From the NCBI GenBank assembly GCA_903916245.1, contig CAIWVZ010000353.1:1-33648 (forward strand): DNA of 33,648 nt. Direction: 5' to 3'. Source of the stretch: an uncultured Planctomycetota bacterium (GTDB taxonomy: Bacteria > Planctomycetota > GCA-002687715 > CAIWVZ01). Made by a program: the position numbers and the translations under genes. This document shows positions 3,323 to 31,814 of the stretch, one piece after another (position 1 is the stretch's first letter; each line of letters starts with the position of its first letter). The notes beneath the pieces were generated by a model. That model ran no database searches, had not been told where the DNA came from, and was given only the letters and a program-made list of their open reading frames with translations.

Positions 3323-3335
3323 TCAGCGCGACGCG
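3310..3335. terminator. 26-bp perfect palindrome spanning two abutting convergent stop codons
   Basis: CGCGTCGCGCTGA|TCAGCGCGACGCG, 13 complementary pairs centred on 3322|3323. Confidence 0.75.
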
Positions 3336-4957
3336 CGACGGACGTCCGACCATCGTCCGACGACGGGCGCCGGGAACGTCGTTTCGGCTCCATCCGTCCA
3401 CCGCACGTGCACCGACTTCGGAAGGCGTGTTCGGGCGAACGTGAACTGAACGCGCGGATCGCAGGTCGCGAGATACGACTTGGCGGAACGCACTTCGCCG
3501 ACCGATCGACCGTCGTCGAAGTGAAGCGTCACGCGGGCGCCGAGGGCGTCGGCTCCGGAACGCTCTCGAACCCTCAATCCGACCCAAGCGGCGACGGCCG
3601 GGAGTCGATTGCGGAACAACCGCAACGGCCCGTCGCGATTCATCACGAGGACGTCGATCGCCCCGTCATCGTCGATATCGCCGACGGCGAGCCCCCGCCC
3701 GGACTCGTGGAGACGGAAGTCGGAACCCGCGTCGCCCTCTTCGAAACGCCCGTCGTCGCGTTGCCGCAACCACTGATCGGGTTCTCCGAAAACGTCGGGC
3801 CCGCCCACCAACTCGGGGACGAGGGCGACGCGCCCGTTGGCGACGACGAAGTCGAGGCACCCGTCTCGATCGACGTCGACGATCGCCGTACCGAATCCCG
3901 TCTGAGAGCGCGTCAACACGCCGAGTCCGTTGCGCGCCGTCGCATCGACGAAATAACCGTCGCCTCCGAGGTAGAGCGCATGCGTCTCGCGATGGAGATG
4001 GACTTTCCAGATATCGAGGCGACCGTCTCCGTTCACGTCGCCGCCGTCGACCCCCATGCCCGCCTGCGACTTGCCCGTCTCGTCGACGGCGCATCCGCGT
4101 TCGGTCGCTTCCTCGACGAAGCGCCACTCTCCGAGATTGCGCCACAAGAACGACGGCATCTGATCGTTCGAGACATAGACGTCGATACGACCGTCGCCGT
4201 CCGCATCGGTCAGGAGAACCCCGAGGGCGGTCCCGCGGCGCGTGCCGATTCCGCAAGTTTCGGTGCGATCGACGAACCGAAGACCGCCGAGATTCTCGAA
4301 GACGCGCGTCATGCCGGGCGCGCCGTAGGACTGCGGCGAGCAGTAGTCGCGCGTCCCGTCGGCGGAGACACAGACGCGTCGGGTGAATCGCGGCGTGTCT
4401 TTCCAATCGAGGTAGTCGCCGATCACGAGATCGAAGTCGCCGTCGCCGTCGAGATCACCGGCCGCTCCGCTCGTCCCCCACGGACAGGGAACGAGACCCG
4501 AGCCCGGAGTGGCGTCTTCATAGACGCCGTCGCCGCGATTGCGCCACAACGCCGTCTTCCCGACTCCGGTCATGACGAGATCGACGTCGCCGTCGAGATC
4601 CAAGTCGGCGGCCACGACGCCCATGCCGTAGGCGTCGAACGGCGGCAACGACGTGGCCGACACGTCGGAGAACCTCCCGTCCGTTCCTTGAATCCACAGA
4701 CCGTGTCGTCGGGGATGAGCGACGGTCGGCGCGGAGCCTACGGCGAGGACGTCGAGTCGTCCGTCCCCGTTCACGTCGACGAATCCGCAACCTCCCCCCA
4801 TGATTTCGGGAAGCGCTTTTTCGGGCGTCGCCGCGGAGACGTGCGTGTAGACGATTCCGCGCGTCCGCGCCACGTCTTCGAAGGCTCCGGTGTCGTGAGT
4901 ATCGCTCGATCGGCCGCATGCCGACGCGAGAACGAGAAGCCACACCAGTTTCCTCAC
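3323..4957 (-). CDS. FG-GAP/VCBS repeat protein with C-terminal UnbV/ASPIC domain (CRTAC1-like), lipoprotein-like signal
   Basis: GTG start at 4957: VRKLVWLLVLASACGRSS; seven DxDxDGxxD motifs (e.g. VDVNGDGRLDVL, GDLDGDGDFDLV); C-terminal GLRVRERSGADALGARVTLHFDDGRSVGEVRSAKSYL. The longer track ORF (to 5863) overlaps the TPR gene and is not supported upstream of 4957. Confidence 0.85.
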   Translation of the reverse strand: MRKLVWLLVLASACGRSSDTHDTGAFEDVARTRGIVYTHVSAATPEKALPEIMGGGCGFVDVNGDGRLDVLAVGSAPTVAHPRRHGLWIQGTDGRFSDVSATSLPPFDAYGMGVVAADLDLDGDVDLVMTGVGKTALWRNRGDGVYEDATPGSGLVPCPWGTSGAAGDLDGDGDFDLVIGDYLDWKDTPRFTRRVCVSADGTRDYCSPQSYGAPGMTRVFENLGGLRFVDRTETCGIGTRRGTALGVLLTDADGDGRIDVYVSNDQMPSFLWRNLGEWRFVEEATERGCAVDETGKSQAGMGVDGGDVNGDGRLDIWKVHLHRETHALYLGGDGYFVDATARNGLGVLTRSQTGFGTAIVDVDRDGCLDFVVANGRVALVPELVGGPDVFGEPDQWLRQRDDGRFEEGDAGSDFRLHESGRGLAVGDIDDDGAIDVLVMNRDGPLRLFRNRLPAVAAWVGLRVRERSGADALGARVTLHFDDGRSVGEVRSAKSYLATCDPRVQFTFARTRLPKSVHVRWTDGAETTFPAPVVGRWSDVRRASR

Positions 4958-6132
4958 GGATTCGCCCCCTTGCGAGACGGTGATCGTCGTTCCGCGTCCG
5001 CGCGGAGGCGTCGGGCCAGCTCCCATTCGGGACGGGCCGCACATACCGCGTTCAGGTGATCCAACGCATCCTCGACGCGACCGTCTTTCAACGCGCATGC
5101 ACCGAGCGCGAGCCTCGCCCCCATCGCGTCGGGATCCGCGAGCAACGCGCGCCGTGCGACGGCGGCGACATCCGTCGTCGACGCCCCGAGGTCGAGCATC
5201 CGCGTGGCACGCCGTTCGAGCGCGGATGCGGGCGCGTCGTCGCGGGCGGCGACCTTTTCCCACACGGCGTCCGCCGCGGCCGTGGCCCCCAAGCGAAAAT
5301 CGAGATCGGCTTTTTGGAGAAGGAAATCGATGTCGTCGGTCGTCGTTTCGAACGGCGTCAACAACGCGCGCGCCGCACGGTAATCCCCGGCGGCCGCGAC
5401 CGATTCCGCCCGCAACCGCGCCGCGCGCGCATCGTCGCGTTCGAGAAGCACGCGTCGATACACGGGATCCCGAACGACATCCGAACGTCGCATGGGGACA
5501 CCTCGCAGCAGAGCGGCCGCACTCGGGTCTCCCCTCCTCACGCGAATCGATGCCGAAACGTGTCGAGCGGCCGGATCGTTCGGAGCCTTCAGGAGCGCCC
5601 GTTCCGCCAAGGCTGCCGCATCCTCGACACGTCCCTGCGCCAGTCGCGCACGGGCCGCGATGATCGTCGGTACGGGATCGTCGGGATCGAGGGCTTCGGC
5701 GCGAGCCGCGTCCTCGACCGCGTCGGCCGCACGCCCGGCATCGAGCGCGCGTTCCGCCGAAAGCCGCCACACTTGAGGAAGTGCGGCGGCATCGATGCGG
5801 GCGACCACCAAGGCGGGATCGGGATCGAGTCCCGCCTGATGAAGGGCCAACGCCCGTAGCCACGCCGCCTCGGCACGGGCGACGGGATCCGACAATCCCT
5901 GCCGGGCCGCCGCGTAGACCATAGCCGCCGGACCGTAGGCGTCACGGGCGTGCAACCATCGCGCATAGGCGAAGCGGGCGCTCGCATCTCCGACCGCCGC
6001 CCGATCGCGCCGCAGCACCGCCTCGGGGATTCCGGACGGCGCGGGAAGCGGCACGGAGGTGTCGCCCCCCTCCGCGCACGCCACCGCCAAGACGGCGGCG
6101 GCGACACCCGCGCGCAAGGTCGCCGACTTCAG
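4954..6132 (-). CDS. TPR-repeat lipoprotein-like protein
   Basis: LKSATLRAGVAAAVLAVACAEGG (lipobox-like) then helical TPR-like repeats (ALDPDDPVPTIIAARARLAQGRVEDAAALAERALLKAPNDPAARHV). Likely CTG start at 6132 overlapping the upstream stop by 4 nt; TTG 6117 is the alternative. Confidence 0.72.
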   Translation of the reverse strand: MKSATLRAGVAAAVLAVACAEGGDTSVPLPAPSGIPEAVLRRDRAAVGDASARFAYARWLHARDAYGPAAMVYAAARQGLSDPVARAEAAWLRALALHQAGLDPDPALVVARIDAAALPQVWRLSAERALDAGRAADAVEDAARAEALDPDDPVPTIIAARARLAQGRVEDAAALAERALLKAPNDPAARHVSASIRVRRGDPSAAALLRGVPMRRSDVVRDPVYRRVLLERDDARAARLRAESVAAAGDYRAARALLTPFETTTDDIDFLLQKADLDFRLGATAAADAVWEKVAARDDAPASALERRATRMLDLGASTTDVAAVARRALLADPDAMGARLALGACALKDGRVEDALDHLNAVCAARPEWELARRLRADAERRSPSRKGANP

Positions 6133-9269: not shown

Positions 9270-10501
9270 ACCGACTCGCTCTCACGCTGTTCGCGGTCTA
9301 CGCCGCATGGATCATCACCCTCACGTCGACTCCGGTCCACGCGCAGAAAGCGACGGTGACTCTCGGGATCGACGTTCTGTTGGCGGAAGGACATCCCATC
9401 CTCGCGGGCAAGCGCATCGGCCTCGTGACGAATCCCTCGGGCGTGAACAAGGATCTCGTCCCGACGGCGGATCTGCTCGCGGCGGATCGCCGTTGGAAGC
9501 TGGTGCGTCTTTTCGGCCCCGAACACGGCATCCGCGGCGACGTCGCGGCGGGCGAAAAAGTCGGCGATGCCGTCGACCCGGTGACCGGGATCCCGGTCAC
9601 GAGTCTTTACGGAAAGACCAAGGCACCTCCCAAAGACATCCTTCAGACCCTCGACGTCCTCGTGTTCGATATTCAAGACATCGGAAGCCGTACGTACACC
9701 TACGTATCGACGCTCGGCGAATGCCTCGTCGCATGCGCCGCGGCGGGGCGACCGATCGTCGTGCTCGACCGACCGAATCCGATCGGCGGCGTGCTGTTCG
9801 AAGGCGCGGTCCGCGACGACAAATGGACGTCGTTCATCGGATGGTCGCCGATGCCGGTCTCCCACGGGATGACGCTCGGCGAAACCGCGCGATGGATGAA
9901 GTCGAAGATGTCGATCGACGTCGATCTCCACGTCGTCGCCATGAAGGGATGGACGCGAACCATGCAATGGGAAGACACGGGTCTCCACTGGGTGCCCACG
10001 TCTCCCCATATTCCGCACGCTCTCCAAGCCCGCCTCTACATCGCCACGGGAATGATCGGTGGAATCACCGTCAACGTGAACGAAGGCGTCGGCTACACGT
10101 TGCCGTTCGAAACGATCGCCGCCGAATGGCTCGATCCGACGGCGGTCGCCGCGGCGCTCGCGAAGATGGACGTCCCCGGCGTCGCATTTCGTCCCCTCGC
10201 CTACGTCCCGAACTACGGCAAGTTCGCCAAGAAGCCGCTCCGTGGACTTCAACTGATCGTCACCGATCGCGACACGTTTCGCCCACTGCGGACGTCGCTC
10301 GCACTGTTGACCGCCCTCGAGAAGGTTCATCCCGGCAAGACCGAATTCGAGAACGAACGGAGCCTCTCGATCCACTGGGGCAACGAGAAGATCATCCCGA
10401 TGATCAAAGCCGGAGCCGACGTCGCGACGGTCGAGAAGACCTTCGCCCCCGGACTCGAGACGTTCGCGGCGGAGCGCGCGAAGGCGTTGATCTACCGCTG
10501 A
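9266..10501 (+). CDS. namZ: DUF1343 protein, NamZ-like exo-beta-N-acetylmuramidase, secreted
   Basis: Signal peptide MNRLALTLFAVYAAWIITLTSTPVHAQ; canonical DUF1343 motifs GKRIGLVTNPSGVN, RLFGPEHGIRGD, DVLVFDIQDIGSRTYTYVSTL, IVVLDRPNPIGG. Start overlaps the upstream stop (ATGA 9266-9269). Confidence 0.85.
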   Translation: MNRLALTLFAVYAAWIITLTSTPVHAQKATVTLGIDVLLAEGHPILAGKRIGLVTNPSGVNKDLVPTADLLAADRRWKLVRLFGPEHGIRGDVAAGEKVGDAVDPVTGIPVTSLYGKTKAPPKDILQTLDVLVFDIQDIGSRTYTYVSTLGECLVACAAAGRPIVVLDRPNPIGGVLFEGAVRDDKWTSFIGWSPMPVSHGMTLGETARWMKSKMSIDVDLHVVAMKGWTRTMQWEDTGLHWVPTSPHIPHALQARLYIATGMIGGITVNVNEGVGYTLPFETIAAEWLDPTAVAAALAKMDVPGVAFRPLAYVPNYGKFAKKPLRGLQLIVTDRDTFRPLRTSLALLTALEKVHPGKTEFENERSLSIHWGNEKIIPMIKAGADVATVEKTFAPGLETFAAERAKALIYR

Positions 10502-12513: not shown

Positions 12514-13405
12514 TCCGCGGACCGCGACGGCCGTCGCGATCCTCGCCGCGTTGCCGCTCGTCGCGCAGACGACACGCGACGAAGACGCACGCTTCCGACG
12601 CCTCTTCGAACAGGGGCGCCATGCGGAACTGGCGGAGGCACTCGGCCGGAAGCTCGCCGAATCGCGGCCGCATCCGGGTCATGTGCTCATGGCCGCGGAA
12701 ACGGCCTACGAACTCGAGCGTTTCGAAGAGGCCGAACGCCGATTCGCGGAGGCCCTCGCTCTCGATCCGACATTGATTCCGCTGACGGTGCGGCGCGGAG
12801 CGACGCTCGTCGGGCTCGGACGCACCGACGACGCTCGCCGTCATCTCGCGGCGTTCGACGCGGCCCCACCGCGTCGCCGCGCGGCCGCGATCTTCGGACT
12901 CGGCTTGGCGGCCGTCGCCGACGGAGACGGCGCGGCGGCTCGGCGATATTTCGAGGCGTCGCTGAAACTCTCGCCGGACGACGCGGCCTGCGCCGTCCGC
13001 CTCGCTCAACTCGACCTCGCGGAAGGTCGCGACGTTGCGGCCCTCACCCTCGCCGATGCGATCCTCACACGACACCCGATGCACACCACCGCGACCCACG
13101 TCCGCGCGCGAGCGCTCGTCGCGTTGAATCGGACGGAGGAGGCGGACGCCGCCGCCGCGCGTCACCGAGCACTTTTGTCCGCTCACGATCGCATCGCGGT
13201 GTTGTCCGCTTCCGTCGCGACTTCGAGCACGCCGAGCGCGGTCATGGTCGCGGTCGCCCGCATCCACGCCGAATTCGGCGATCGCGCGGGAGTCGCCCGA
13301 TGGACGGGATACGTCCCGACGGACGATCCGCTCTTTCCGCAAGCCGCGGCGTTGCGCGAGACGAGCGGCACGGCGACGCGGCCGACGTCGAGGCCCGTCC
13401 GATGA
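12491..13405 (+). CDS. TPR-repeat secreted protein
   Basis: MRFPRFPSPRTATAVAILAALPLVAQ signal; AAETAYELERFEEAERRFAEALALDPT, GLGLAAVADGDGAAARRYFEASLKLSPDD. Confidence 0.8.
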   Translation: MRFPRFPSPRTATAVAILAALPLVAQTTRDEDARFRRLFEQGRHAELAEALGRKLAESRPHPGHVLMAAETAYELERFEEAERRFAEALALDPTLIPLTVRRGATLVGLGRTDDARRHLAAFDAAPPRRRAAAIFGLGLAAVADGDGAAARRYFEASLKLSPDDAACAVRLAQLDLAEGRDVAALTLADAILTRHPMHTTATHVRARALVALNRTEEADAAAARHRALLSAHDRIAVLSASVATSSTPSAVMVAVARIHAEFGDRAGVARWTGYVPTDDPLFPQAAALRETSGTATRPTSRPVR

Positions 13406-15033
13406 AAGGTCTCATCGGATTGCTGCTGACCGCGACCGCGCTCGCTCAAGGGCCGCTTTTCGAGGAAGTGCCGATCGTCGACGCCGCTGCGACGTCCCGG
13501 CCAATTCCACGACCGATCCACATTCCGGACGCGAAAGGCGGGGGTGCGTCGCTCGCGGACCTCGACGGCGACGGACGCCTCGATCTGATCGCGACACGAC
13601 CCTCGACGGTGGAAGCCGTGGCGGCGGGACGTCCGGGACCGCCCCCTCTCATTCTGCGCGGCAAAGGCGACGCGACCTTCGAAGATCCAGCCGCGGTGCT
13701 CCCTCCCCTCGATTGGGCGTTCGCGTCGGCCATCTTCGACATCGACGACGACGGACTGCGGGACATCGTGTGGAGCACGGCTCGTGGGCTCGTCGTGTGG
13801 CGCCAATCGAAGCCCTTCGTTTTCGACGACGCGTCGTCGCCGTTCCTTCCCGAAACCGCGAGACGGGCCGGTTGGTGCACATCGATCGCCGTCGATGATC
13901 TCGACCTCGACGGCGATCTCGACCTCATCGCAGCGCGTTACCTCGACTTTCCGTGGGAGAAGCCGCCCGCGGACGGGGTCGACGGAAGGCGCTGCCGGTT
14001 CAAAGGACGCCCGGTCGTCTGCGGCCCACGCGGCTTCGCCCCGATGCCGATCCTCGTGCTCGAGCGTCGCGGCACGACATTCGTCGACGGCGCCTCCCTG
14101 CTTCGCGCGCCGGCGTCACCCCCGGTCTACGGTCTCGGCGTCGTGACTCTCGACGCCAACGACGATGCCCGTCCCGATATCGCCGTGGCCGCCGATATGA
14201 CTCCGAACCTTCTCTTCCTCTCGACGTCGGAGGGAACGTGGGAGGAACGCGGCGAACGATGCGGCATCGCATGGAGCGCCGACGGGGCTCCCGAAGCGGG
14301 CATGGGCATCGACGCCGGCGATCTCGACGGAGACGGGCGCGACGATCTCGTGATCACGAATTTCGAAGGCGAAACGAACGCGGTCCTTCTCCAGGAACGC
14401 TCGGGACTTTTCCGCGAAGCGTCCATCGGTATCGGGACCGCGGCGGTCGACCGCCCCCGACTCGGATGGGGCGTCGGACTTCGCGACTTCAACCTCGACG
14501 GGCGCCTCGACATCTTCGTCGCCAACGGGCACGTCTATGCGGATGCCGCGGAAAACGGATCGTCCTACGCGATGCCCGCCACGCTGCATCTATCCGGTGT
14601 CCACGACGGGCGATTGCGCTTCACGGCGGACACCGCCACACCGGCGTTGACCCGACCGCGCATCGCGCGAGCGGCGGCTTTCGGCGACCTCGATGCGGAC
14701 GGTCGAGTCGACGCGGTCCTCGCGCAGCTCGGCGCTCCCCCCGTCGTCCTCCGCAACACCGCCCCGAACGTCCCTTGGTTCGGCGTGACGCTCAAAGGCC
14801 CCCTCCGAAATCGTGATGCCGTCGGCGCACGCATCCGTGTCGAGACCGATCGTGGCGTCGTCCGACGCCGCGTGGGAGTCTCGGGTTCGTTCCTCGCACA
14901 ATCCGCCCCGTCGTGCGTCTTTCCGTTTTCTTCCGTTTCTCCGCCGCGCGTCTCGGTGGAATTCAAAGGAAAGTCGGTCGCAGTCGCCGTGAAGCCGGGA
15001 ACTTACGTCGACGTGGACCTGTCCACCCCCTGA
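13402..15033 (+). CDS. FG-GAP/VCBS repeat protein with UnbV-like C-terminus
   Basis: ATG 13402 MKGLIGLLLTATALAQG; seven DxDxDG-type motifs (ADLDGDGRLDLI, DDLDLDGDLDLI, GDLDGDGRDDLV...); C-terminal VTLKGPLRNRDAVGARIRVETDRGVVRRRVGVSGSFLAQ. Confidence 0.85.
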   Translation: MKGLIGLLLTATALAQGPLFEEVPIVDAAATSRPIPRPIHIPDAKGGGASLADLDGDGRLDLIATRPSTVEAVAAGRPGPPPLILRGKGDATFEDPAAVLPPLDWAFASAIFDIDDDGLRDIVWSTARGLVVWRQSKPFVFDDASSPFLPETARRAGWCTSIAVDDLDLDGDLDLIAARYLDFPWEKPPADGVDGRRCRFKGRPVVCGPRGFAPMPILVLERRGTTFVDGASLLRAPASPPVYGLGVVTLDANDDARPDIAVAADMTPNLLFLSTSEGTWEERGERCGIAWSADGAPEAGMGIDAGDLDGDGRDDLVITNFEGETNAVLLQERSGLFREASIGIGTAAVDRPRLGWGVGLRDFNLDGRLDIFVANGHVYADAAENGSSYAMPATLHLSGVHDGRLRFTADTATPALTRPRIARAAAFGDLDADGRVDAVLAQLGAPPVVLRNTAPNVPWFGVTLKGPLRNRDAVGARIRVETDRGVVRRRVGVSGSFLAQSAPSCVFPFSSVSPPRVSVEFKGKSVAVAVKPGTYVDVDLSTP

Positions 15034-15099
15034 TCGCCCGTCGACACGCGTCGCTCACGCCCTTTTTCCATGCGTTCCGCGATCCCGTACACTTCACCG

Positions 15100-16926
15100 A
15101 TGCGGCGGCGCCTCCTCCTTCCTCTCCTTCTCGCGGGCCTTCTGCACGCGCAACAGTTCGCGGATCAAACCACGACCCGACTTCCGGCTCAGGCGATCTG
15201 GAGCGAGGAAGTCGATGCGGTCGACGTCGACGGAGACGGGGATCTCGATCTGATCTACGGAAAGGGTGACGGCTTCTCGGCGGCCTCCACCGCTCGCCAA
15301 AACACGATTCTGATCAACAACGGTTCCGGATTCTTCACCGACGAGACGACGACACGCTTTCCGGTGTTGCTCGGCCATACGAAAGACATCGACGCGGTCG
15401 ACGTCGATCGCGACGGGGATCTCGATCTCGTCCTCGCGAACGCCTGGGGACAACAACCGCGTCTTTGGATCAACAACGGAGCGGGATTCTTCACGGACGC
15501 CACGGCGACTCGGTTTCCCGCGCTGACGCTCCTGTCGTTCGGAACCGCGGCGGGAGACGTCGACGGGGACGGCGATCTCGATCTTCTCTTTTGCGATTCG
15601 GGCGCGACCCAATTCTCCGGATCCGGAGGCCAGCCCCGACTCTTTCTGAACGACGGAACCGGCGTCTTCTCGCAGGCGACGGCCGCCCGTCTTCCCCCGA
15701 TCGCGCTCCTCGGACAAGTCGACTGCGACTTTCTCGACGTCGACGGCGATTTCGATCTCGACGCGACGGTGACGAGTCGCGACGGACAAAGTGTGCTGTT
15801 GATCAACGACGGATTCGGCACGTTTACGTCGGGTTCCCTCCCGCCGGAAGGTACGGGCACCTACGAGTTCGAACCGGGCGACGTCGATGCGGACGGAGAC
15901 GTCGACATCTTCGTCGTCGGCGTGAGCGGCCTCTCCGAAGGGGTGTTGATCAACAACGGGAGCGGGACCTTCACGGCGTCGACGGCGGCGGTGGTCGGCA
16001 ACACCAGTTCGGACGACAACGACGCGTCGCTCGGCGATATCGACGGCGACGGCGATCTCGATGCGGTCGTGGGAGCGATTTCCACCGCGGAACGCGGACT
16101 GGTCAACGTATCCGGCGTCTTCACCTACCAATCGTCTCTCTTTCCGACGCTCGTAGATTCGAGCATGGACGGAGAACTCGCGGACGTCGACGGCGACGGC
16201 GATCTCGACTACGTGAGTGCCGTCGGCGAATCGGGAACGTTCCAAAATCGCGTCTACATCAACACGACCGGAACGCCGGACACGCGCCCTCCGCTCTTGC
16301 GGGTGGCGCTCTACGGTTCGGGAACGCCCTTCGGCGACATCCCCATTCGCTGCGTCGTTCGCGACGTGCTCGTGACGGAAGGCGATCCGGGATACACGGT
16401 GTCCGCGTCGGGCACGGTCAACGGCACCCCGTTCACGCTGCCCCTTCGTTGGTCGGGATCCGATCAGTTCCTCGGGGTGCTGACGACGGTCCCTCAAGGC
16501 GCCACCGTGGCCTTCACCGTCACGGCCGCCGATCGCCGCGGCAACGTCGTCGTCGGTGCCCCGGTGTCCTTCACCCCCACGGCTTTCCCCCCTCCACGCC
16601 TCGCCATCACGCCGCAGGGCGGCGGCGCCTTCACGGTCGTACTCGGTTCGGCGGCCCATCCCTTCGCCGAGGAACTCCTGTTCGTGTCGACCGCCGTCTC
16701 CGGACCACCCGGCGCCGGTCCGTTGCTCGGACTCGGAGGCGACGCTTGGTTCGTCGTTTCCCTACCGCCGGTGCTTCCGCCCCTCCACGCCTACCTCGAC
16801 GCTTCGGGCCAGCAAACGACCGTCTTCGGCCCGGGAAGCGTTCCGGTCGGATTCACGATCGACGCGCGGGCGGTCTTCCTCGGGCCGAATCCCGTGATGA
16901 CCAACCTCGTCCGCGTGACGTTCTAG
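15100..16926 (+). CDS. FG-GAP/VCBS repeat secreted protein
   Basis: MRRRLLLPLLLAGLLHAQQ; seven repeats (VDVDGDGDLDLI, VDVDRDGDLDLV, GDVDGDGDLDLL, LDVDGDFDLDAT, GDVDADGDVDIF, GDIDGDGDLDAV, ADVDGDGDLDYV) interleaved with 'INNGSGFFTDETTTRFP' modules; beta-rich C-terminal tail. Track start 15070 also possible. Confidence 0.82.
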   Translation: MRRRLLLPLLLAGLLHAQQFADQTTTRLPAQAIWSEEVDAVDVDGDGDLDLIYGKGDGFSAASTARQNTILINNGSGFFTDETTTRFPVLLGHTKDIDAVDVDRDGDLDLVLANAWGQQPRLWINNGAGFFTDATATRFPALTLLSFGTAAGDVDGDGDLDLLFCDSGATQFSGSGGQPRLFLNDGTGVFSQATAARLPPIALLGQVDCDFLDVDGDFDLDATVTSRDGQSVLLINDGFGTFTSGSLPPEGTGTYEFEPGDVDADGDVDIFVVGVSGLSEGVLINNGSGTFTASTAAVVGNTSSDDNDASLGDIDGDGDLDAVVGAISTAERGLVNVSGVFTYQSSLFPTLVDSSMDGELADVDGDGDLDYVSAVGESGTFQNRVYINTTGTPDTRPPLLRVALYGSGTPFGDIPIRCVVRDVLVTEGDPGYTVSASGTVNGTPFTLPLRWSGSDQFLGVLTTVPQGATVAFTVTAADRRGNVVVGAPVSFTPTAFPPPRLAITPQGGGAFTVVLGSAAHPFAEELLFVSTAVSGPPGAGPLLGLGGDAWFVVSLPPVLPPLHAYLDASGQQTTVFGPGSVPVGFTIDARAVFLGPNPVMTNLVRVTF

Positions 16927-21883: not shown

Positions 21884-21940
21884 CGTTCGGTTGCGTCCCG
21901 CTGCCCGATGGGGCATTCTCACCCCTTGGGAGTCCACGCC

Positions 21941-22903
21941 ATGCGCCTCGGAACGATCCTCGCCGTCCTCGCTCTCTTGCTCGCCGCCTGCGGCGATTCG
22001 AAGTCCCCCTCGAAGCGGGTCATCGCGGTCATTCCGAAGGGAACGACCCACGAGTTCTGGAAATCGATCCACGCCGGCGCCTTGAAGGCCGCCGCCGAAA
22101 GCGGCGTGGACATCGCGTGGAAGGGACCGCCGAAGGAAGACGACCGAGACGAGCAGATCAAAGTGGTCGAGGACTCGGTCACCCGTCGTGTCGCGGCCAT
22201 CGTTCTTGCCCCCCTCGACGAGGCGGCTCTCGCGACGCCCGTCGCCGAAGCCGCGAAAGACAAGATCCCCGTCGTCGTCATCGACTCGGATTTGAAGGGC
22301 GATGCCCACGCGTCGTTCGTCGCCACCGACAACGAAAAAGGTGGAGCGATGGCCGCGGAACGTCTCGGCACGCTTCTCGGCGGCAAAGGCCGCGTCCTCA
22401 TGCTCCGCTATCAGGTCGGATCGGCGTCCACGGAGAAGCGCGAGCGCGGCTTCCTCGCGGGGATCGCCAAGTTCCCCGGCATCACCATGGTGTCCGACAA
22501 CCAATACGCGGGCGCGACCGCCGAAGCCGCCTACGCCGCCGCCGAGAATCTTCTTCAGCGATTCCCCGAACTCGACGGCATCTTCTGCCCGAACGAGTCC
22601 GCGACGTTCGGCATGCTTCGCGCACTCACCTCGGTCGGCCGAAACGGCAAGGTGAAGTTCGTCGGATTCGACGCCAGTGCGAAACTCGCGGAAGCCCTGA
22701 AGACCGGTGATATTCACGGTCTCGTCCTGCAGAATCCGTTCCGCATGGGCTACCTCGGGGTCAAGACCGCTCTCGACGTGCTCGACGGAAAACTCGTCGA
22801 ACGTCGCATCGACACCGGCGTCGCCATGGCGACTCCCGACAACATGACGACTCCCGACATCGCGGAACTTCTGAACCCCAAGCTCCCCGAAAACGTCCGT
22901 TGA
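21941..22903 (+). CDS. Sugar ABC transporter substrate-binding lipoprotein (RbsB-like periplasmic binding protein)
   Basis: ATG 21941 MRLGTILAVLALLLAACGDSK lipobox; IAVIPKGTTHEFWKSIHAGALKAAAESGV; DSDLKGDAHASFVATDNEKGGAMAAERL; VKFVGFDAS. Confidence 0.9.
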   Translation: MRLGTILAVLALLLAACGDSKSPSKRVIAVIPKGTTHEFWKSIHAGALKAAAESGVDIAWKGPPKEDDRDEQIKVVEDSVTRRVAAIVLAPLDEAALATPVAEAAKDKIPVVVIDSDLKGDAHASFVATDNEKGGAMAAERLGTLLGGKGRVLMLRYQVGSASTEKRERGFLAGIAKFPGITMVSDNQYAGATAEAAYAAAENLLQRFPELDGIFCPNESATFGMLRALTSVGRNGKVKFVGFDASAKLAEALKTGDIHGLVLQNPFRMGYLGVKTALDVLDGKLVERRIDTGVAMATPDNMTTPDIAELLNPKLPENVR

Positions 22904-24426
22904 GCCGATCCGCGTCCGATCGCCCGACGCCGCTCCTCACGATGGAAGGCGTGGAAAAATCGTTCGGTGCCACCCGTGCACTTTCGGGGGTATCGCTCGA
23001 CGTCGCGCCCGGCGACGTGCACGCGCTGATCGGCGAAAACGGCGCCGGAAAAAGCACGTTGATGAAGATCCTCGCGGGGGTCCTCACTCCGGACGCGGGT
23101 CGCATGAGTCTCTTCGGCTCCCCCTACCGACCAACGGGCCCCCTCGACGCCCGACGCCGCGGGGTCGCGATGATCCATCAGGAATTGACCCTCGCGCCGC
23201 ACCTCGACGTCGAGGCGAACCTCACCCTCGGGACGGAAACGACGACGTTCGGTTTCGTGCGCCGTGCGGGACGCCGAGCCGCCATCCGCGATGTGCTGAC
23301 CCGCCTTCGCTTGGCCGATCTTCCCTTCGACACTCCGGTCGGCACGCTGTCGACGGCGGTACGTCAGCTGCTCGAAATCGCACGCGCGCTTCTCTCCGGC
23401 GCCCGGGTCGTGATCATGGACGAACCGACCTCGTCCCTCGGTCGCCGGGACGTCGAACGGCTGTTCGACATCGTCCGCGAACTCGCGGCTTCGGGCTGCG
23501 GCATCATCTACATTTCCCACTTCATGGACGAGCTGCGCGAAGTCGCGACCCGATTCACCGTCCTGCGGGACGGCGCGAGCGTCGGAACCGGCACCCTCGA
23601 CGCCGTCGACGACGACGCGTTGATCCGACTCATGGCGGGTGGCGCCCCCACCACAGGCACGCGCGCGCCGTCCGTGCGCGGGACGCCGTTGCTCGTCCTC
23701 GACGGGCTCGAGGGGCACCCACGGCCGACCGAAGCGTCCCTCGTGCTGCACCGGGGAGAGATCCTCGGCATCACGGGGCTCGTCGGAGCGGGGCGGACGG
23801 AACTCCTCCGGGCCGTCTTCGGGCTCGACCCGGTCGTCTCCGGCTCGGTGACCTTGGCGGGGATCGGCTTTTCCGCGGACGAGGGCCCCGACGCCCGCTG
23901 GGACCGCGGAATGGGCTTCGTGTCCGAGGATCGCAAACACGAGGGCCTGATGCTCGATCTGCCCCTGTCGGTCAATCTGACGCTCAGCCGCCTCGAACCC
24001 GTATCCCGGGCGGGCTTCGTCGACGGGAAAAAACTCGATGCGGCCTCACGGGAATGGATCGACCGACTCGGCATCCGAGCGGCGGGGTCGAACGTCGCGG
24101 TAGGTTCCCTTTCCGGAGGGAATCAGCAAAAGGTCGCGATCGCTCGACTCCTCCACCACGACGTCGACGTCCTCCTCCTCGACGAGCCGACCCGCGGTAT
24201 CGACGTCCGCAGCAAAGCGGCCGTATGGGATCTGCTCCGCTCCCTCGCGAACGCGGGCCGAGGGATCCTCGTCGTCGGTTCGCACCTCCCCGAAATGCTC
24301 GCTCATTGCGACCGCATCGCCGTCATGAACCGGGGTCGCCTCGGCGAGGCCCGCGACGCGTCGACGGTGACCGCCCACGAACTTTTGACCGAAGCCGTTT
24401 CGGTGGCGGAGAGTCGCCATGAGTGA
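22900..24426 (+). CDS. Sugar ABC transporter duplicated ATP-binding protein (RbsA/MglA-like)
   Basis: TTG start at 22900 overlapping the upstream TGA; Walker A GENGAGKST, Walker B VVIMDEPTSSL; second NBD LSGGNQQKVAIARLL, VLLLDEPTRGID. Confidence 0.92.
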   Translation: MSRSASDRPTPLLTMEGVEKSFGATRALSGVSLDVAPGDVHALIGENGAGKSTLMKILAGVLTPDAGRMSLFGSPYRPTGPLDARRRGVAMIHQELTLAPHLDVEANLTLGTETTTFGFVRRAGRRAAIRDVLTRLRLADLPFDTPVGTLSTAVRQLLEIARALLSGARVVIMDEPTSSLGRRDVERLFDIVRELAASGCGIIYISHFMDELREVATRFTVLRDGASVGTGTLDAVDDDALIRLMAGGAPTTGTRAPSVRGTPLLVLDGLEGHPRPTEASLVLHRGEILGITGLVGAGRTELLRAVFGLDPVVSGSVTLAGIGFSADEGPDARWDRGMGFVSEDRKHEGLMLDLPLSVNLTLSRLEPVSRAGFVDGKKLDAASREWIDRLGIRAAGSNVAVGSLSGGNQQKVAIARLLHHDVDVLLLDEPTRGIDVRSKAAVWDLLRSLANAGRGILVVGSHLPEMLAHCDRIAVMNRGRLGEARDASTVTAHELLTEAVSVAESRHE

Positions 24427-25372
24427 TTCGAACGCGGTGCGACTCGTCCGACGGCTCGGGCCGTTCCTCGGCCTCGCGCTCGTCCTCGTCCTCTTCACGG
24501 CTCTCGAACCGGATCGTTTCCCCACCGCCGTCAACTTCAGGACGGTGTTGACTCAAACAGTCATCGTGGGTCTCGGCGCCGTGGGCATGACGTTCGTGGT
24601 CGTCTCAGGGGGGATCGATTTGTCCGTCGGGTCTTCGATCGCGTTGTCGACGATCGTCATCGCACGACTTCTGCGCGACGGAGCCTCGCCCGCGGCGGCC
24701 GCGCTCGCCGGAGTCGTCGCGGGAGGCGTCGTCGGCGTCGTGAACGGCACGCTGATCACGCGACTGCGCATCGCTCCGTTCATCGTGACGCTCGGGACGC
24801 TCCAAATCGTCCGCGGGACCGCGAAGTACCTCGCCGGAGAGCAGAAAATCGACGCTCCGGCGTCGTGGCTCGCGGGACTCATGGCGAAAAGCCCCGATCC
24901 TTCGTGGCTCATCGTCGCCCCGGGAGTTTGGGCGCTGATCCTCCTCGCGGGCTTCCTCGCCTTCGTCCTCCGTCGCTCGATTCTCGGAGTTCACACCTAC
25001 GCGATCGGATCCAACGAATCGACGGCCGTCCTCTGCGGCATCAAGGTGGATCGCACCAAGGTGCTCATCTACGGGCTTTCCGGCCTGATGACGGGCCTCG
25101 CCGGTCTCATGCAGTTCTCCCGCTTGACCGTCGGCGATCCGACCGCGGCGACGGGCCTCGAACTCAACATCATCGCGGCGGTCGTGATCGGCGGCGCGAG
25201 CCTCTCGGGCGGGGTCGGCGGCATCGCGGGATCCTTGGTCGGCGCCCTCGTCATGGCGTTCCTCGCGAACGGGTGCACGCTGGTCGGGGTTCCGAACTAC
25301 GCTCAGGAGATTCTCGTCGGCGCGATCATCGTGGCCGTCGTGGCCATCGATCGCTCGAAACGCGGCACCTGA
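24419..25372 (+). CDS. Sugar ABC transporter permease (RbsC-like)
   Basis: GGIDLSVGSSIALSTIVIARLL; YAIGSNESTAVLCGIKVDRTKVLIYGLSGLMTGLAGLM; LNIIAAVVIGGASLSGGVGGIAGSLVGALVMAFLANG. Confidence 0.92.
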   Translation: MSDSNAVRLVRRLGPFLGLALVLVLFTALEPDRFPTAVNFRTVLTQTVIVGLGAVGMTFVVVSGGIDLSVGSSIALSTIVIARLLRDGASPAAAALAGVVAGGVVGVVNGTLITRLRIAPFIVTLGTLQIVRGTAKYLAGEQKIDAPASWLAGLMAKSPDPSWLIVAPGVWALILLAGFLAFVLRRSILGVHTYAIGSNESTAVLCGIKVDRTKVLIYGLSGLMTGLAGLMQFSRLTVGDPTAATGLELNIIAAVVIGGASLSGGVGGIAGSLVGALVMAFLANGCTLVGVPNYAQEILVGAIIVAVVAIDRSKRGT

Positions 25373-25883: not shown

Positions 25884-25904
25884 AGATGAGAACGAGTCTC
25901 ATCT
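25884..25904. promoter_or_regulatory. Fur-box-like palindrome upstream of the ferredoxin gene (may also act as a 3' hairpin for the M28 gene)
   Basis: AGATGAGA-ACGAG-TCTCATCT, perfect 8-bp arms; ATGAGAACGAGTCTCAT is close to Fur-box variants of the form ATGAGAATGATTCTCAT. About 100 nt upstream of the ferredoxin ATG on the minus strand. Confidence 0.5.
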
Positions 25905-27305
25905 AAGCGTTTCCCTCATATCCGCAAGCACGTACGCCAGCACGGCATGGATGCCGACGTGGGCGTCCAACGCCTTCGGATCGACGGCCTCGAACGTGTC
26001 GAGGACCGTGTGGTGCCACTCGAAGTATCGGGTGCCGACCGTGTTGATGGACATCATCGGGACGCCGTGCGGCGCCAAGGGTGCGATGTCGGCTCCTCCG
26101 CCGTTCGTCGTCGCCTTCGCCGCGCCGAGAGGTCCGAGCAGAGCCACGATGTCGGTGAATGTCCGGAACCGCGGGTCGTCGGTGGTCGCGCCCGCGGGGA
26201 GCTTCATGCCGAACCCCGTCGGAGTCTCCACGCCGCCGTCGTTCTCGATCGCGGCGACGTGGCGCTTCGCGGTGCTCCGATGCGCCGCCTCGTACGCGCG
26301 GGCCCCGCGCAATCCGTTTTCTTCGTTGGCGAACAGCACGATGCGGATCGTGCGCCGCGGACGCAGGCCGAGCCGCTTCAACACGGCGGGGACTTCGACC
26401 ACCGATGCGACGCCGCCACCGTCGTCCTGCGCCCCTTCCCCGACATCCCAGCTGTCGAGGTGGGCTCCGAGGAGCACGATCTCGTCGGGTTGCTCCGATC
26501 CGAGATAGTCCCCGACGATGTTGGCGCCGTCCGCGTCCGGCATCGTGCGACATCCGAGGTCCATGCGGATCCGCATCGGCTTCCCGTCGCGTACGGTCTT
26601 TCCGATCCGGCCCGCGTCTTCGAACGACAGCGCCGCCGCGGGGATCTCCGGGATTCCTTCCGCGTACTTGAGCGTCCCGGTGTGCGGGGTTCGGCTTCCA
26701 CCGAACCCCGACGAGCGCACGAGGACGCCGACGGCGCCGAGGGCCGCGGCCCGCGCCGCGCCGTCGACGCGGTAGGAAACGGTCTTGCCGTAGCCTTCCC
26801 AAGGCACGTCGTACACCACGATCTTTCCCCGGACGTGGTCCCTTCCGAGGCGTTCGAGTTCGACGAACGACCGAACGGCCACCACCTCGGCCTCGATACC
26901 CCCTTTCGGAGTTCCCACCGAGCCGCCGAGTGCGAGGACGGGAAGCGCCTCGCTTTCCGGGGACGTGATCTCGACGCGCGCGTGACCACGCACCCATACG
27001 GGCACCTTGCACGGCTCCCGTCGAACGATGTCGCATCCCGCGCGTCGCAATTCCTCGAGAGCCCAAGCCTCGGCTTTCGCTTGGGCCGGACTTCCCGCGA
27101 GGCGCGGGCCGATGACGCGACAGAGGTGGTGGAGGCGATCCAGCGCCCCGTTGCCGAGCAAGGACGCGGTCGCGATACGACGCGCCACGGCACCGTAGCC
27201 ATCGGCGATCGTCGGTGTTTGTGCATGAACGGAAACGACGACGGCCGTCGCCACGAGGGCCACGGCCGTCATCCGATTCAGTCCGCGCGAAAAGCGCATG
27301 GACAT
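25899..27305 (-). CDS. M28 family metallopeptidase (PA-domain containing), secreted
   Basis: ATG 27305 MSMRFSRGLNRMTAVALVATAVVVSVHAQ; LGAHLDSWDVGEGAQDDGGGVA, FANEENGLRGARAY, EWHHTVLDTFEAV metal-site motifs; PA-like RGKIVVYDVPWEG...GAVGVLVRSSG. Confidence 0.9.
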   Translation of the reverse strand: MSMRFSRGLNRMTAVALVATAVVVSVHAQTPTIADGYGAVARRIATASLLGNGALDRLHHLCRVIGPRLAGSPAQAKAEAWALEELRRAGCDIVRREPCKVPVWVRGHARVEITSPESEALPVLALGGSVGTPKGGIEAEVVAVRSFVELERLGRDHVRGKIVVYDVPWEGYGKTVSYRVDGAARAAALGAVGVLVRSSGFGGSRTPHTGTLKYAEGIPEIPAAALSFEDAGRIGKTVRDGKPMRIRMDLGCRTMPDADGANIVGDYLGSEQPDEIVLLGAHLDSWDVGEGAQDDGGGVASVVEVPAVLKRLGLRPRRTIRIVLFANEENGLRGARAYEAAHRSTAKRHVAAIENDGGVETPTGFGMKLPAGATTDDPRFRTFTDIVALLGPLGAAKATTNGGGADIAPLAPHGVPMMSINTVGTRYFEWHHTVLDTFEAVDPKALDAHVGIHAVLAYVLADMRETLR

Positions 27306-27315
27306 GAGGGGGACC

Positions 27316-28323
27316 TCACTTCTTGTTGGGGTCGAACTCCGCGGCGGCCGCGAGCATCGTCGCACGCGCTCCGACGCGAGTCCCGTCGTTCTTCTTCGCG
27401 AACGTACGAAGTGCCTTCGCGACGTCGGCGGTCGGGGCCTTGTCGCCCGCGGACGCCACGATCTTGCGAAGCGCCTTGTCGAGATCGATTTCCTTCACGA
27501 CCTCCGGGCGCGCGAAGTCGAGGACGAGCGCGGACGCTTCGTTCTCCCACTCCGGATTGCCCTTGATCCACTTCGCATAGTTCTCGGCCGCCTTTTGAGC
27601 GTCGAGGAACCGCGCGTCGTCCATCAAGACTTTCGGGGCCTTCTTGAAGGCTTCCCGGCGCGTCTCGATCTCGCGACCCACCGCCTCGAGGTCTTCCTTC
27701 TCGTCGTCCTTCGCTTGAGCGAGGGCGTCGGCCACGACCTTCGCGGCTTCGACGAAAGCATTCTTCCCGTAGAGCAGACCGCGCGCCTTCTTGGCCGCGC
27801 CCTTGCCCCAACCGGACTTCGCCTTCTTGAGTTCCGCTTCCACCATTTCCTCGAGCTTCTTCGGGGCGCCGTTGGGGTTGCCCTGCCAAAGGATGGTGCC
27901 GTCGACGCCGACGAGCGCCGCCGACGGGAGCCCCGCACCCGAGGACGGGAACGGCTGATCCGCCGACGTGCTCAGCCACGTCTTGTTCGCGGGGAATCGC
28001 TTCCACATGAAGCCGGGGATGTCCGACGGATCAAGGCCCTGCGATTCGAGCAGCAGCGCGACGAACCCGTCCTTCCCGTACTTCTCCTGCATCTTGATGG
28101 CGTGAGGCACGCTCCCGCCGAGGCAAGGCCCTCAATGATTTCCCCACCAGTCGATGAGGATCGGGCTGCCCTTCAACTCGGCCATGGACTTGCGACCGTC
28201 CGAGTTGAGAACTTGTGAGAACACCTTATCGGGAGACGGATCGCCGACCTTCAACTGCGCGAACGCAGCCACCGCGACGACCGCCGCCGCGCCGAGGGTG
28301 CGCAGGAAGCGAGAGAGATTCAT
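27316..28323 (-). CDS. Thioredoxin-fold (TlpA/AhpC-TSA-like) secreted protein, probable selenoprotein with UGA-encoded Sec in a U-G-P-C active site
   Basis: Track ORFs 28132..28347 and 27316..28110 are in the same frame, separated by TGA (28134-28132) and GGG CCT TGC CTC GGC GGG AGC. Joined: MNLSRFLRTLGAAAVVAVAAFAQLKVGDPSPDKVFSQVLNSDGRKSMAELKGSPILIDWWGNH[U]GPCLGGSVPHAIKMQEKYGKDGFVALLLESQG...GLPSAALVGVDGTILWQGNPNG. The TGA replaces the first Cys of CGPC. Confidence 0.85.
28099..28134 (-). promoter_or_regulatory. Candidate bacterial SECIS element: UGA plus downstream hairpin GGCG-g-GAG-CGUGC-CUC-a-CGCC
   Basis: Hairpin 28119-28099 begins 13 nt after the UGA; 4-bp + G.A mismatch + 3-bp stem, 5-nt apical loop CGUGC containing GU at +22/+23 from the UGA. 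Confidence 0.6.
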
Positions 28324-28362: not shown

Positions 28363-29508
28363 TCAAGTGTGAGGCTTCGGCCGCTCTTTGGCAAGTTGCC
28401 GCCGCGTCGGGACTTGGGAAATTCGGGCCGTCAGGCGATCGATCCGCCGCCCGAGCGCGGCAACCCCCGCATCCAAGGGATGATCCGCCTCGAGTTGACG
28501 GAAAAGCCGACGCCCGAGGTCGAGGTCCCCCGACGCCAACGCGGCCCGACAGGCACGCACCCAAAGAGGACGATGCACCCGCGCGTCGGAACGCGCTGCA
28601 CGCATCAGCGCCAAGCCCCCGGGAGCATCTCCCCCGTCGAAGCGATCCATGCCCGCGGCGATCGGGCACCCGATGTCCGCCGCACCGCCGTAGACGGGAA
28701 GCAGGCGCCGCGCCAACGCCGCCAGACTGACGATGTCGAGGTGATTGTGGAGAAAGACTTCGGCGAGTCGATGGCGTCCGCCGCGCTGCCACGCGAAGTA
28801 CTGCGCGGGACACTCCGCCCCCGGGAGATCGTCTTCGCGATGGAATCCGAGCCAGCGTTCTTCGACGGTCCGTAGCCGGACGTCTCCCCAAATGTTCCGC
28901 GCGTGGCGTCGCACGGGATGGATGAGATCGAGGTGCGGACGCCCTCGACAAACGGCCTCGAGGCCCTGGAGACGAAAACGGTCGTCGATCCGCGGAGCGT
29001 CGAACGACTTTCCATGAAAACTGACGAGCGCCCGGCCGTCCTCGATTTCGCGACGCACCGCGTCGAGGAAATCGGATTCGAGATGCGGTCCCGCAAGAAG
29101 GTGCTGACGCACGACGAACGCGCCGTCGACGTAACGACCGATGCCGACGAGGAACACCCACACGCCCGCACCCCCGTGGAGCGAGGTCGTTTCGGTATCG
29201 ACGAATCGCCACGCGTCGAGCGGGATGTCGTGGAAGCGCGCATCTCGGGATGCCGCCGCCGCCCATGCGGAGAGGCCGTCGACCGGATTCAACGGAGCAT
29301 CGCCGTGGCGTGCATGAACCGACACGCGTCGCGTCAGCACCCACGATGGCCCTTCGCGTTGGAGCCCGGGCACGGGAGGTGCTCCCGCTTCGGTGACGGA
29401 TGTTGCGACGGCGACGGCGGGACTCGGCGCCGGCCCACCCGCCGGTGCCACCCGTCCGTCGGGCGCGACGCCCAATCGCCGGAGTCGGTCTAGGAAAGGG
29501 CTTCCCAT
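28363..29508 (-). CDS. mrfB: RNase H-like/DnaQ-like exonuclease with C-terminal TPR-like region (MrfB/YprB-like)
   Basis: ATG 29508 MGSPFLDRLRRLG; WRFVDTETTSLHGGAGVWVFLVGIGRY, LVSFHGKSFDAPRIDDRF, FLHNHLDIVSLAALARRL; adjacent to and overlapping the MrfA-like helicase. Confidence 0.82.
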   Translation of the reverse strand: MGSPFLDRLRRLGVAPDGRVAPAGGPAPSPAVAVATSVTEAGAPPVPGLQREGPSWVLTRRVSVHARHGDAPLNPVDGLSAWAAAASRDARFHDIPLDAWRFVDTETTSLHGGAGVWVFLVGIGRYVDGAFVVRQHLLAGPHLESDFLDAVRREIEDGRALVSFHGKSFDAPRIDDRFRLQGLEAVCRGRPHLDLIHPVRRHARNIWGDVRLRTVEERWLGFHREDDLPGAECPAQYFAWQRGGRHRLAEVFLHNHLDIVSLAALARRLLPVYGGAADIGCPIAAGMDRFDGGDAPGGLALMRAARSDARVHRPLWVRACRAALASGDLDLGRRLFRQLEADHPLDAGVAALGRRIDRLTARISQVPTRRQLAKERPKPHT

Positions 29509-31814
29509 GCCCCCTCGGTCGCCGCGCGAACGGTCCCGCTCCATGCCGCCAAAAGGTCGAGGACGACTCCGGCCGCCTCCTTGGCCTCGCGCCCGCCGCG
29601 ATTCAATCCGATGCACGAAGGGCACCCGATCTCGCAAGGGCATTTCGCGAGAGCGTCACGGGCCGCGAGGACGAGTTCCCGCCGTTTGGCGAAGAACGTC
29701 TCCGCGAATCCGACTCCCCCGCGGACCGAATCCATGAGCATGATCACGGGTCGTTCGAAATGATCGTGTTCGAATTCGCCGAAACCGCGCACGTCCGCGG
29801 GACTGCATCGCACGAAAATCGGCGCCAAACCACGAAGAAGGTGGGCGATGCCGGGAACGGCTCCCGCGCGTGTCCCTTCGCGCAAACGCGCCCGCGCGAC
29901 CAGTTCCTCCGACAAGGCGAACCACATCGCCGTGGTGTCGAGTTCTTCGGGAGGCAACGCGATGTTTCCGGAATCGAGCGTTTCGTGCGTGTAGAAACGA
30001 ATGCGTTTGAACACGGTCGCGAGCGTGGTCACGTGCACGTCGCCACGACCTTCGATCGCCGCGGCGGTATCGATCCTTTCGTCTTCGGTCAGAACGGCCA
30101 CCTTGGTTTCCGTCTCCGCGTCGGTGTACCAATCGACGGCGGCGCGCGTCGCGTAAGCGCGGCGTCCGTCCCAGTCGAGTTTCTCGACGTGGTACTGCTC
30201 GCCTTGATGTTGGTAGATCGCATGTTCGTGGATCGTGGTCGCGGCGTCGGAGCGTGCGACCATCCCGAGCGACGTGTCGTCCTTCGTGTCGAGCACGATG
30301 AACGAATCCGGATCGACGAAGTCGAGGCTGACGTCCTGCGCGGGGTACGCGTCCGCCATCCAGTGGTACTTGTCGCCCCGTTCGAGCAGGACACCCCCCT
30401 CGGACGCCAACCAGCGGAGCAACTCCGCCGCATCCGGTGAATCCCCGAAGCCGTCACCACGACGGAACGGCAATTCGAACGCCGCGCATTTCACGTGCTG
30501 CGCGAGCAACACGGGGTTGTCGGGATTGATGACGGGGCTCTCCGAAACCCCCGCCAAGACCCGTTCGGGATGCGTCAGGATGAACTGATCGAGAGGAACC
30601 GACGTTCCGACGAGCAGCGACAATGACAAACCGGAACGACGTCCGGCACGCCCCGCTTGTTGAAAATACGACGCGATGGTTCCGGGATAGCCCATCATGA
30701 CGACCGCGTCGAGGGCTCCGATATCGACGCCGAGTTCGAGGGCGTTCGTCGCGGCGACCATACGGATCGCCCCGCCACGAAGTCCCTGCTCGATGTCGCG
30801 CCGCAGCGCCGGAAGGTAGCCGCCTCGATACGTCGCCACCTTCGATTCCGGCATTCCGAGTTCGGAGGCCGTATCTCTCAGATACTTCGTGACGACTTCC
30901 ACACGGCTGCGGCTGCGGCCGAAGACGATCGAAGGAACATCCTGTTCCATCAAACGCCGAGTCAGTTTCCGCACGTGATCGACGGCGCGCGCCCGAATAC
31001 CGAGCGCCGGAACCATGACGGGAGGATTGTAGAACACGTGATGGCGCTCGGCGGCGGGTGCGCCGTTGCGGTCGATGACGACGGGATGACGCCCCGTAAG
31101 CCGACGGAAGTGGGCGGCCGGTTCGTGGATGGTCGCCGAGCATGCGATGAACGTGGGCGACCCGCCGTGGTGACGGGCGATCCGCACGAGGCGACGAAGG
31201 ACGTTGGCGACGGAAGATCCGAAGACGCCTTTGTAGTGGTGGAGCTCGTCGACGACGATCCACCGGAGCCGGCGGAAGAAAGAAACCCACCGCGCATGGT
31301 TCGGAAGAATGCCGACGTGCAGCATGTACGGATTGGTGACGAGGATGTCGCACCGATCGCGGGCGATCCGACGTTCGTCGGGCGGCGTATCGCCGTCGTA
31401 CGTGTGACACCCGATCGCGTCGCCGAGTTCCGAAGCCAACCCGTGCAGTTCGGCGACCTGGTCCTGCGACAACGCCTTGGTGGGAAACAGATAGAGAGCC
31501 GTCGGACGTCGATCCGGATCTTCCGTCAACATCGACGAAAGTACGGGGAGATTGTAGGAAAGGGACTTGCCGCTCGCGGTCGGAGTGACGATCAGGGCGT
31601 CGCGCCCCGCCGAGGCGTGAACGCATGTTTCCGCCTGATGACTGTAGAGACGCGCGATCCCCCGCCGAGCGAGGACGTCCCGCAACGCGGACGGGACACA
31701 ATCGGGAAACGGCGCGAAGGACCCGTTCCGACCGGGCGCGACGTGCCACGCCACCACGTTGTCGGACAACGAGCGGTCGGTTTTAAGTGCATCGAGAAAC
31801 GCGTCGAGCGACAT
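29490..31814 (-). CDS. mrfA: DEAD/DEAH-box helicase with C-terminal Zn/cysteine domain (MrfA/YprA-like, DUF1998)
   Basis: IVTPTASGKSLSYNLPVL (Walker A), DELHHYKGVFGS, ACSATIHEP, ALELGVDIGALDAVVMMGYPGTIASYFQQAGRAGR; C-terminal KCPCEIGCPSCIG four-cysteine motif. Confidence 0.9.
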   Translation of the reverse strand: MSLDAFLDALKTDRSLSDNVVAWHVAPGRNGSFAPFPDCVPSALRDVLARRGIARLYSHQAETCVHASAGRDALIVTPTASGKSLSYNLPVLSSMLTEDPDRRPTALYLFPTKALSQDQVAELHGLASELGDAIGCHTYDGDTPPDERRIARDRCDILVTNPYMLHVGILPNHARWVSFFRRLRWIVVDELHHYKGVFGSSVANVLRRLVRIARHHGGSPTFIACSATIHEPAAHFRRLTGRHPVVIDRNGAPAAERHHVFYNPPVMVPALGIRARAVDHVRKLTRRLMEQDVPSIVFGRSRSRVEVVTKYLRDTASELGMPESKVATYRGGYLPALRRDIEQGLRGGAIRMVAATNALELGVDIGALDAVVMMGYPGTIASYFQQAGRAGRRSGLSLSLLVGTSVPLDQFILTHPERVLAGVSESPVINPDNPVLLAQHVKCAAFELPFRRGDGFGDSPDAAELLRWLASEGGVLLERGDKYHWMADAYPAQDVSLDFVDPDSFIVLDTKDDTSLGMVARSDAATTIHEHAIYQHQGEQYHVEKLDWDGRRAYATRAAVDWYTDAETETKVAVLTEDERIDTAAAIEGRGDVHVTTLATVFKRIRFYTHETLDSGNIALPPEELDTTAMWFALSEELVARARLREGTRAGAVPGIAHLLRGLAPIFVRCSPADVRGFGEFEHDHFERPVIMLMDSVRGGVGFAETFFAKRRELVLAARDALAKCPCEIGCPSCIGLNRGGREAKEAAGVVLDLLAAWSGTVRAATEGAWEALS

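Follow-up and report, generated by a model that had tools for sequence, protein, structure and literature searches.

Whether the TGA at positions 28134-28132 ends a gene, breaks one or is read as an amino acid is the question raised by a locus on the minus strand of the window, the whole 33,648-nucleotide stretch of DNA analyzed here. The window comes from a contig in a 3.17-Mb Planctomycetota metagenome-assembled genome (MAG), which is fragmented into 460 contigs. An earlier note had described two minus-strand open reading frames lying in one frame and parted by this TGA alone, and our reading-frame check agrees. From the ATG at 28323 to 27316, a single 335-codon frame was found, whose sole internal stop is the TGA in question (...LIDWWGNH-TGA-GPCLGGSVPH...) and whose terminal stop is likewise TGA. 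The frame behind the internal TGA, previously put at about 270 codons, stays open for 271.

Read through, the protein has a signal-peptide-like start, the WGNH-U-GPC motif, a GLPSAALVGVDG strand and a Lys/Ala-rich helical C-terminus, with exactly one selenocysteine (Sec; residue 64) and one cysteine (residue 67). Judged from the sequence data, the gene almost certainly encodes an exported thioredoxin-like selenoprotein with Sec in its active site. The features of the locus are as follows.

27316..28323, minus strand: predicted selenoprotein gene, exported redoxin/thioredoxin-fold protein of 335 residues with U64-G-P-C67 (frame, homologues, dN/dS)
28132..28134, minus strand: in-frame TGA, predicted selenocysteine U64 at the first UGPC active-site position (aligned with Cys of homologues)
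28234..28323, minus strand: probable Sec-pathway (secretion) signal peptide and N-terminal segment, with cleavage placed by inspection between MNLSRFLRTLGAAAVVAVAAFA and Q
27868..28233, minus strand: thioredoxin-fold domain of the ResA/TlpA/redoxin type with the cis-Pro segment GLPSAALVGVDG (profile and fold matches)
27319..27867, minus strand: C-terminal all-helical domain of 183 residues, 15% Lys and 21% Ala (sequence, predicted structure)
28099..28119, minus strand: candidate bSECIS hairpin GGCG.GAG-CGUGC-CUC.CGCC (fold, family covariation, synonymous-codon null)
25899..27304, minus strand: downstream M28-family peptidase gene, its ATG probably at 27304 or 27298, just past the selenoprotein stop
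28363..29643, minus strand: upstream gene with an RNase_H_2 domain

Selenocysteine machinery of the source genome

The search for sel genes called for in the earlier note recovered the complete set within the same genome. It carries selA (494 bits), selB (348 bits), selD (357 bits) and, directly after selA, a tRNA-Sec (72.3 bits) with the anticodon TCA (UCA in RNA). The selD gene (contig C64, 19183-20100) has its own in-frame TGA in the motif GGGUASK and is itself a selenoprotein gene. Elsewhere in this genome, tandem ResA-like domains (contig C219, around 10254-10454) contain FWUGPC and FWUSAC, two further Sec candidates, and a paralogue of the window protein (contig C429, 95-1045) contains YWUGPC, with a downstream hairpin that scores weakly. 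Further UGA/Cys frames in the window resemble the non-coding frames that GC-rich DNA produces.

Global reassignment of UGA, as known from codes 4 and 25, would likewise produce a frame that runs on past an internal TGA, and the residue would then be Trp or Gly. However, TGA is the terminal stop in 13 of the 18 window genes, the selenoprotein gene included, so UGA is not globally reassigned. Together with the full Sec apparatus and the Cys aligned at the TGA column in homologues, this leaves reassignment an exceedingly small chance compared with local recoding to Sec.

Conservation of the TGA and selection behind it

The TGA could also reflect a pseudogene or a sequencing or assembly error, in which a Cys codon (TGC or TGT) turned into TGA or was misread as such and the gene is broken. 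The fragmented state of the source MAG would fit such an error, but the same TGA is retained by orthologues from two separately assembled MAGs of the same genus (96−97% and 82% identity). Because independent MAGs carry it, a misread TGC or TGT is excluded as its origin. The UGPC DNA pattern was further found at 41 loci in an 84,980-species genome collection, all encoding the same kind of protein, with about 260−274 codons following the TGA unless a contig edge intervenes; relatives from named genomes belong to Planctomycetota wherever a phylum is stated. Past the TGA, dN/dS is about 0.06 (0.062 against L090, dS 1.66; 0.056 against L085), which speaks against decay. A broken or misread Cys codon is thus extremely improbable, and genuine recoding of the TGA is the reading we retain.

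Of 149 related planctomycete genomes, 115 have homologues, and the in-frame TGA recurs in many of them. Aligning the homologues bore out the prediction of Cys or TGA in the Sec column: wherever the motif of a fetched TGA copy is readable, the TGA takes the place of the first Cys of CxxC, and other homologues have a conserved Cys there. Among the matches listed, where not every TGA was placed at this column, tRNA-Sec occurs in 49 of 54 genomes with a TGA copy versus 9 of 22 with only TGA-free copies (p=1.3e-5). Five TGA-copy genomes lack tRNA-Sec; selA is present in three of them, and the remaining two have a completeness of 77% and 59%.

The window sequence falls into a clade of 41 sequences, all with Sec (SH-aLRT 100). 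Many of these had been retrieved by the TGA pattern, and the clade alone is therefore biased. An independent motif search of 392 genomes of the phylum found the TGA version in 15 and the same motif with Cys (TGY) in none, which also counts against an erroneous Cys codon. On these sequences, the subfamily of the window protein looks Sec-only.

Several further features of the family were observed. Three relatives (L021, L036 and L040) share the architecture but lack both Sec and Cys at the site and are probably redox-dead paralogues. Some genomes (G032, G110, G125 and others) hold up to ten family members, partly in tandem, with Sec and Cys copies mixed. L090, L112 and L114 derive from public MAG records titled Candidatus Kuenenia stuttgartiensis and Singulisphaera sp. 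GP187, names that look loosely auto-assigned. A search for a plasmid relative found none. A UAG-Sec code was considered for three TAG-flagged relatives and rejected: the one examined (L028) has Cys at the site, and its TAG is the end stop.

A covarying hairpin downstream of the UGA

The hairpin behind the UGA has its apical loop CGUGC at 28111-28107, 20 nt past the UGA, and comprises 7 bp with one 1x1 mismatch (-9.6 kcal/mol). It agrees with the published bSECIS constraints, namely an apical loop of 3−9 nt, a stem of 4−16 bp, a G in the first two loop positions, a distance of 16−37 nt from the UGA and an MFE <= -7.5 (PMC13188914). By itself this model is weak, as 88% of shuffled sequences satisfy the constraints too. 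A loose bSECIS scan gave no separation of Sec from Cys or shuffled sequences, single-sequence RNA folding of the stretch past the TGA gave no signal (z +0.90), and Rfam at gathering thresholds gave no match in the window. Only covariation and a synonymous-codon null proved informative.

Across the subfamily, the loop is C-GUG-CC, 20 nt past the UGA. In 27 distinct sequences, 87.0% of the cells of a 4-bp stem are paired versus 54.6 +/- 3.8 after shuffling (0/500 shuffles), shuffle counts that overstate independence because the sequences have common ancestry. The covariation score is 0.736 versus 0.189 for shuffled sequences, and each of the four pairs has changed on both of its sides. Because the stem register was picked by eye in these very sequences, the fraction of paired cells is inflated, more so than the compensatory changes could be; when the partner was slid by 1−3 columns as a control, pairing fell to 24−55%. 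In the three AGC-GUG-CCU sequences, including that of the window, the pairing is shifted by one base from this register and the loop is 5 nt long. All 41 genes use GTG for the Val in the loop, versus 32% among other Val codons.

Hairpins of the wider family, for example GUGAAGGC-GUU-GCCUUCAC, sit closer to the UGA, their loops lying about 17 nt past it. Compared with random synonymous recoding, the hairpins reach a mean z of 1.65 in 46 Sec genes and 0.48 in 9 Cys genes. The window hairpin alone is not exceptional under this null (p=0.077), and the strength of the SECIS is comparative. The bSECIS element sought in the earlier note was located, with compensatory changes in relatives. A universal SECIS loop for the SelB of this genome was dropped as a candidate, as selD and the C429 paralogue differ in sequence there.

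These data also bear on the possibility of two genes, in which translation truly ends at the UGA and a second gene starts at GTG 28110, from where an ORF finder gives a 264-residue frame. Such a split would place U64 and C67 in different products and interrupt the thioredoxin fold, whereas the Cys homologues are single uninterrupted frames, and a covarying hairpin at a fixed spacing from the UGA makes sense only under recoding. We consider two genes highly improbable and take the frame as one selenoprotein gene. The proposed Sec reading of WGNH-U-GPC has thus gained the machinery, the aligned Cys and TGA homologues and the SECIS hairpin.

Predicted structure and family of the protein

AlphaFold2 predicted the protein with high confidence (pLDDT 93.5, pTM 0.89), except for residues 1−20, where confidence is low. 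For the first domain, the best Foldseek matches in the PDB are DsbE-like and ResA-type thiol-disulfide oxidoreductases (3gl3, 4nmu, ResA). Predicted structure, Foldseek and alignment all point to a thioredoxin fold with a redox pair and a cis-Pro, and the Pro of the GLP/GIP segment is invariant among homologues. The protein itself scores 16.5 bits with PF08534 (Redoxin), below the Pfam gathering cut-off of 26.6 bits; this Pfam model recognizes 25 of 28 relatives at E <= 0.01, with 3.6e-21 as the best value.

A selenoprotein of this kind might act as a peroxide-handling, peroxiredoxin-like enzyme rather than as a disulfide reductase, and the Redoxin and AhpC-TSA Pfam models do match most relatives. 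The UGPC center, with its Cys three residues on, is however the arrangement of thiol-disulfide oxidoreductases, the closest solved structures are of the DsbE/ResA/TlpA types, and the commonest NCBIfam match is ResA, found in 33 of 33 members. A peroxide-handling role is therefore unlikely, and disulfide exchange is the chemistry we favor.

The C-terminal 183 residues are predicted to form nine helices (pLDDT 94.2). The extension was rightly described in the earlier note as Lys/Ala-rich, helical and unusual, while its length, given there as roughly 200 residues, is shorter. A PDB fold search with this domain returned nothing significant (best E=0.34), a PDB sequence search nothing convincing, and Pfam no match. 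Counterparts of the domain in sister proteins match the C-terminal half of NF041382 (VPGUxxT type 1), with an E of 3.9e-19 in L034. The window protein's own helical domain reaches only E=0.17, so its homology runs via the family alignment. With 11 bits against the 350 needed and no VPGUxxT motif, the window protein falls outside NF041382, and what is common, through relatives, is the C-terminal domain alone. The helical domain probably recognizes or docks a substrate or partner. Separately, thioredoxin-like domains of the VPGUxxT type were noticed in planctomycetes (L141-L148), each with a single in-frame TGA; most of them sit in short frames that lack the helical domain.

Proposed function and gene neighborhood

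We propose that SelB with Sec-tRNA-Sec decodes UGA 28134-28132 as selenocysteine, aided by the SECIS hairpin that follows after 20 nt. This would yield an exported, periplasmic oxidoreductase of the thioredoxin fold whose only cysteine belongs to the U-G-P-C center. By analogy with ResA/TlpA-type proteins, its selenol would attack disulfides in exported proteins, and C67 would resolve the resulting selenenylsulfide. A DsbD, with two DsbD_N stretches, a membrane domain and a Thioredoxin_7 domain, is encoded in the genome; on the same analogy it would re-reduce the selenoprotein and is a possible source of its electrons. A periplasmic ResA/TlpA-type selenol-disulfide reductase is the somewhat favored function, with the direction of the reaction suggested by these analogues. 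The sequence data themselves show the apparatus for recoding, conservation of the UGA, selection acting on the frame behind it, the covarying SECIS and the predicted fold, and these together support the selenoprotein itself.

The gene neighborhood failed as a clue to function. No conserved operon partner was found beyond the genus, as linkage to the RNase_H_2/DEAD and M28 genes stops there; the RNase_H_2 gene is therefore probably not functionally tied, and substrate and redox direction are guesses for the same reason. Elsewhere, the window contains a sugar-type ABC transporter operon (21908-25372, plus strand; Peripla_BP_4, double ABC_tran, BPD_transp_2) and three FG-GAP repeat proteins (3323-5863, minus; 13300-15033, plus; 15070-16926, plus), one with an ASPIC/UnbV domain.

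Relation to known systems and meaning

Thioredoxin-fold selenoproteins with a UxxC center are already known: a 2026 prokaryotic selenoprotein catalogue lists a "Redoxin family protein" (UxxC, PF08534) and a thiol-disulfide isomerase-like protein (UxxC, cd02966) (PMC13188914, Table 1). As described there, these entries share with the window protein the thioredoxin-fold redoxin domain and Sec as the first residue of the UxxC center, but they give a domain name only, with no C-terminal helical domain or Sec-only subfamily. Selenoproteins of planctomycetes are known as well, reported for planctomycetes P1 and P2 from Porphyra, which, like the window's source, belong to this phylum and have the full Sec machinery (PMC4807772). 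The main text of that report treats fdhA and fmdB.

ResA, TlpA and DsbE share its fold and active-site position, but have Cys at the Sec position and a single domain of about 140 residues without a helical C-terminus. VPGUxxT type 1 proteins share the two-part architecture, with C-terminal 155−160 residues that are homologous in sister proteins, but have VPGUxxT in place of UGPC as the active-site motif. In open-licence papers, we found no description of the two-domain architecture, the apparent Sec-only subfamily or the covarying SECIS.

Selenoprotein genes are easily split by annotation, and gene-finders would split the window gene or call it broken. It is a member of a phylum-wide set, in a phylum that the text of the current prokaryotic selenoprotein review does not mention (PMC13188914). 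The covarying hairpin offers a clean model of how SelB recognizes its RNA target, and the subfamily, apparently lacking a Cys version, lends itself naturally to testing what selenium can do and sulfur cannot. More tentatively, Planctomycetota may possess a large, multi-copy and largely unrecognized set of two-domain exported selenoproteins, one subfamily of which could be obligately Sec-containing, with a helical C-terminal module common to UGPC redoxins and VPGUxxT proteins that is perhaps a docking domain for one periplasmic redox pathway.
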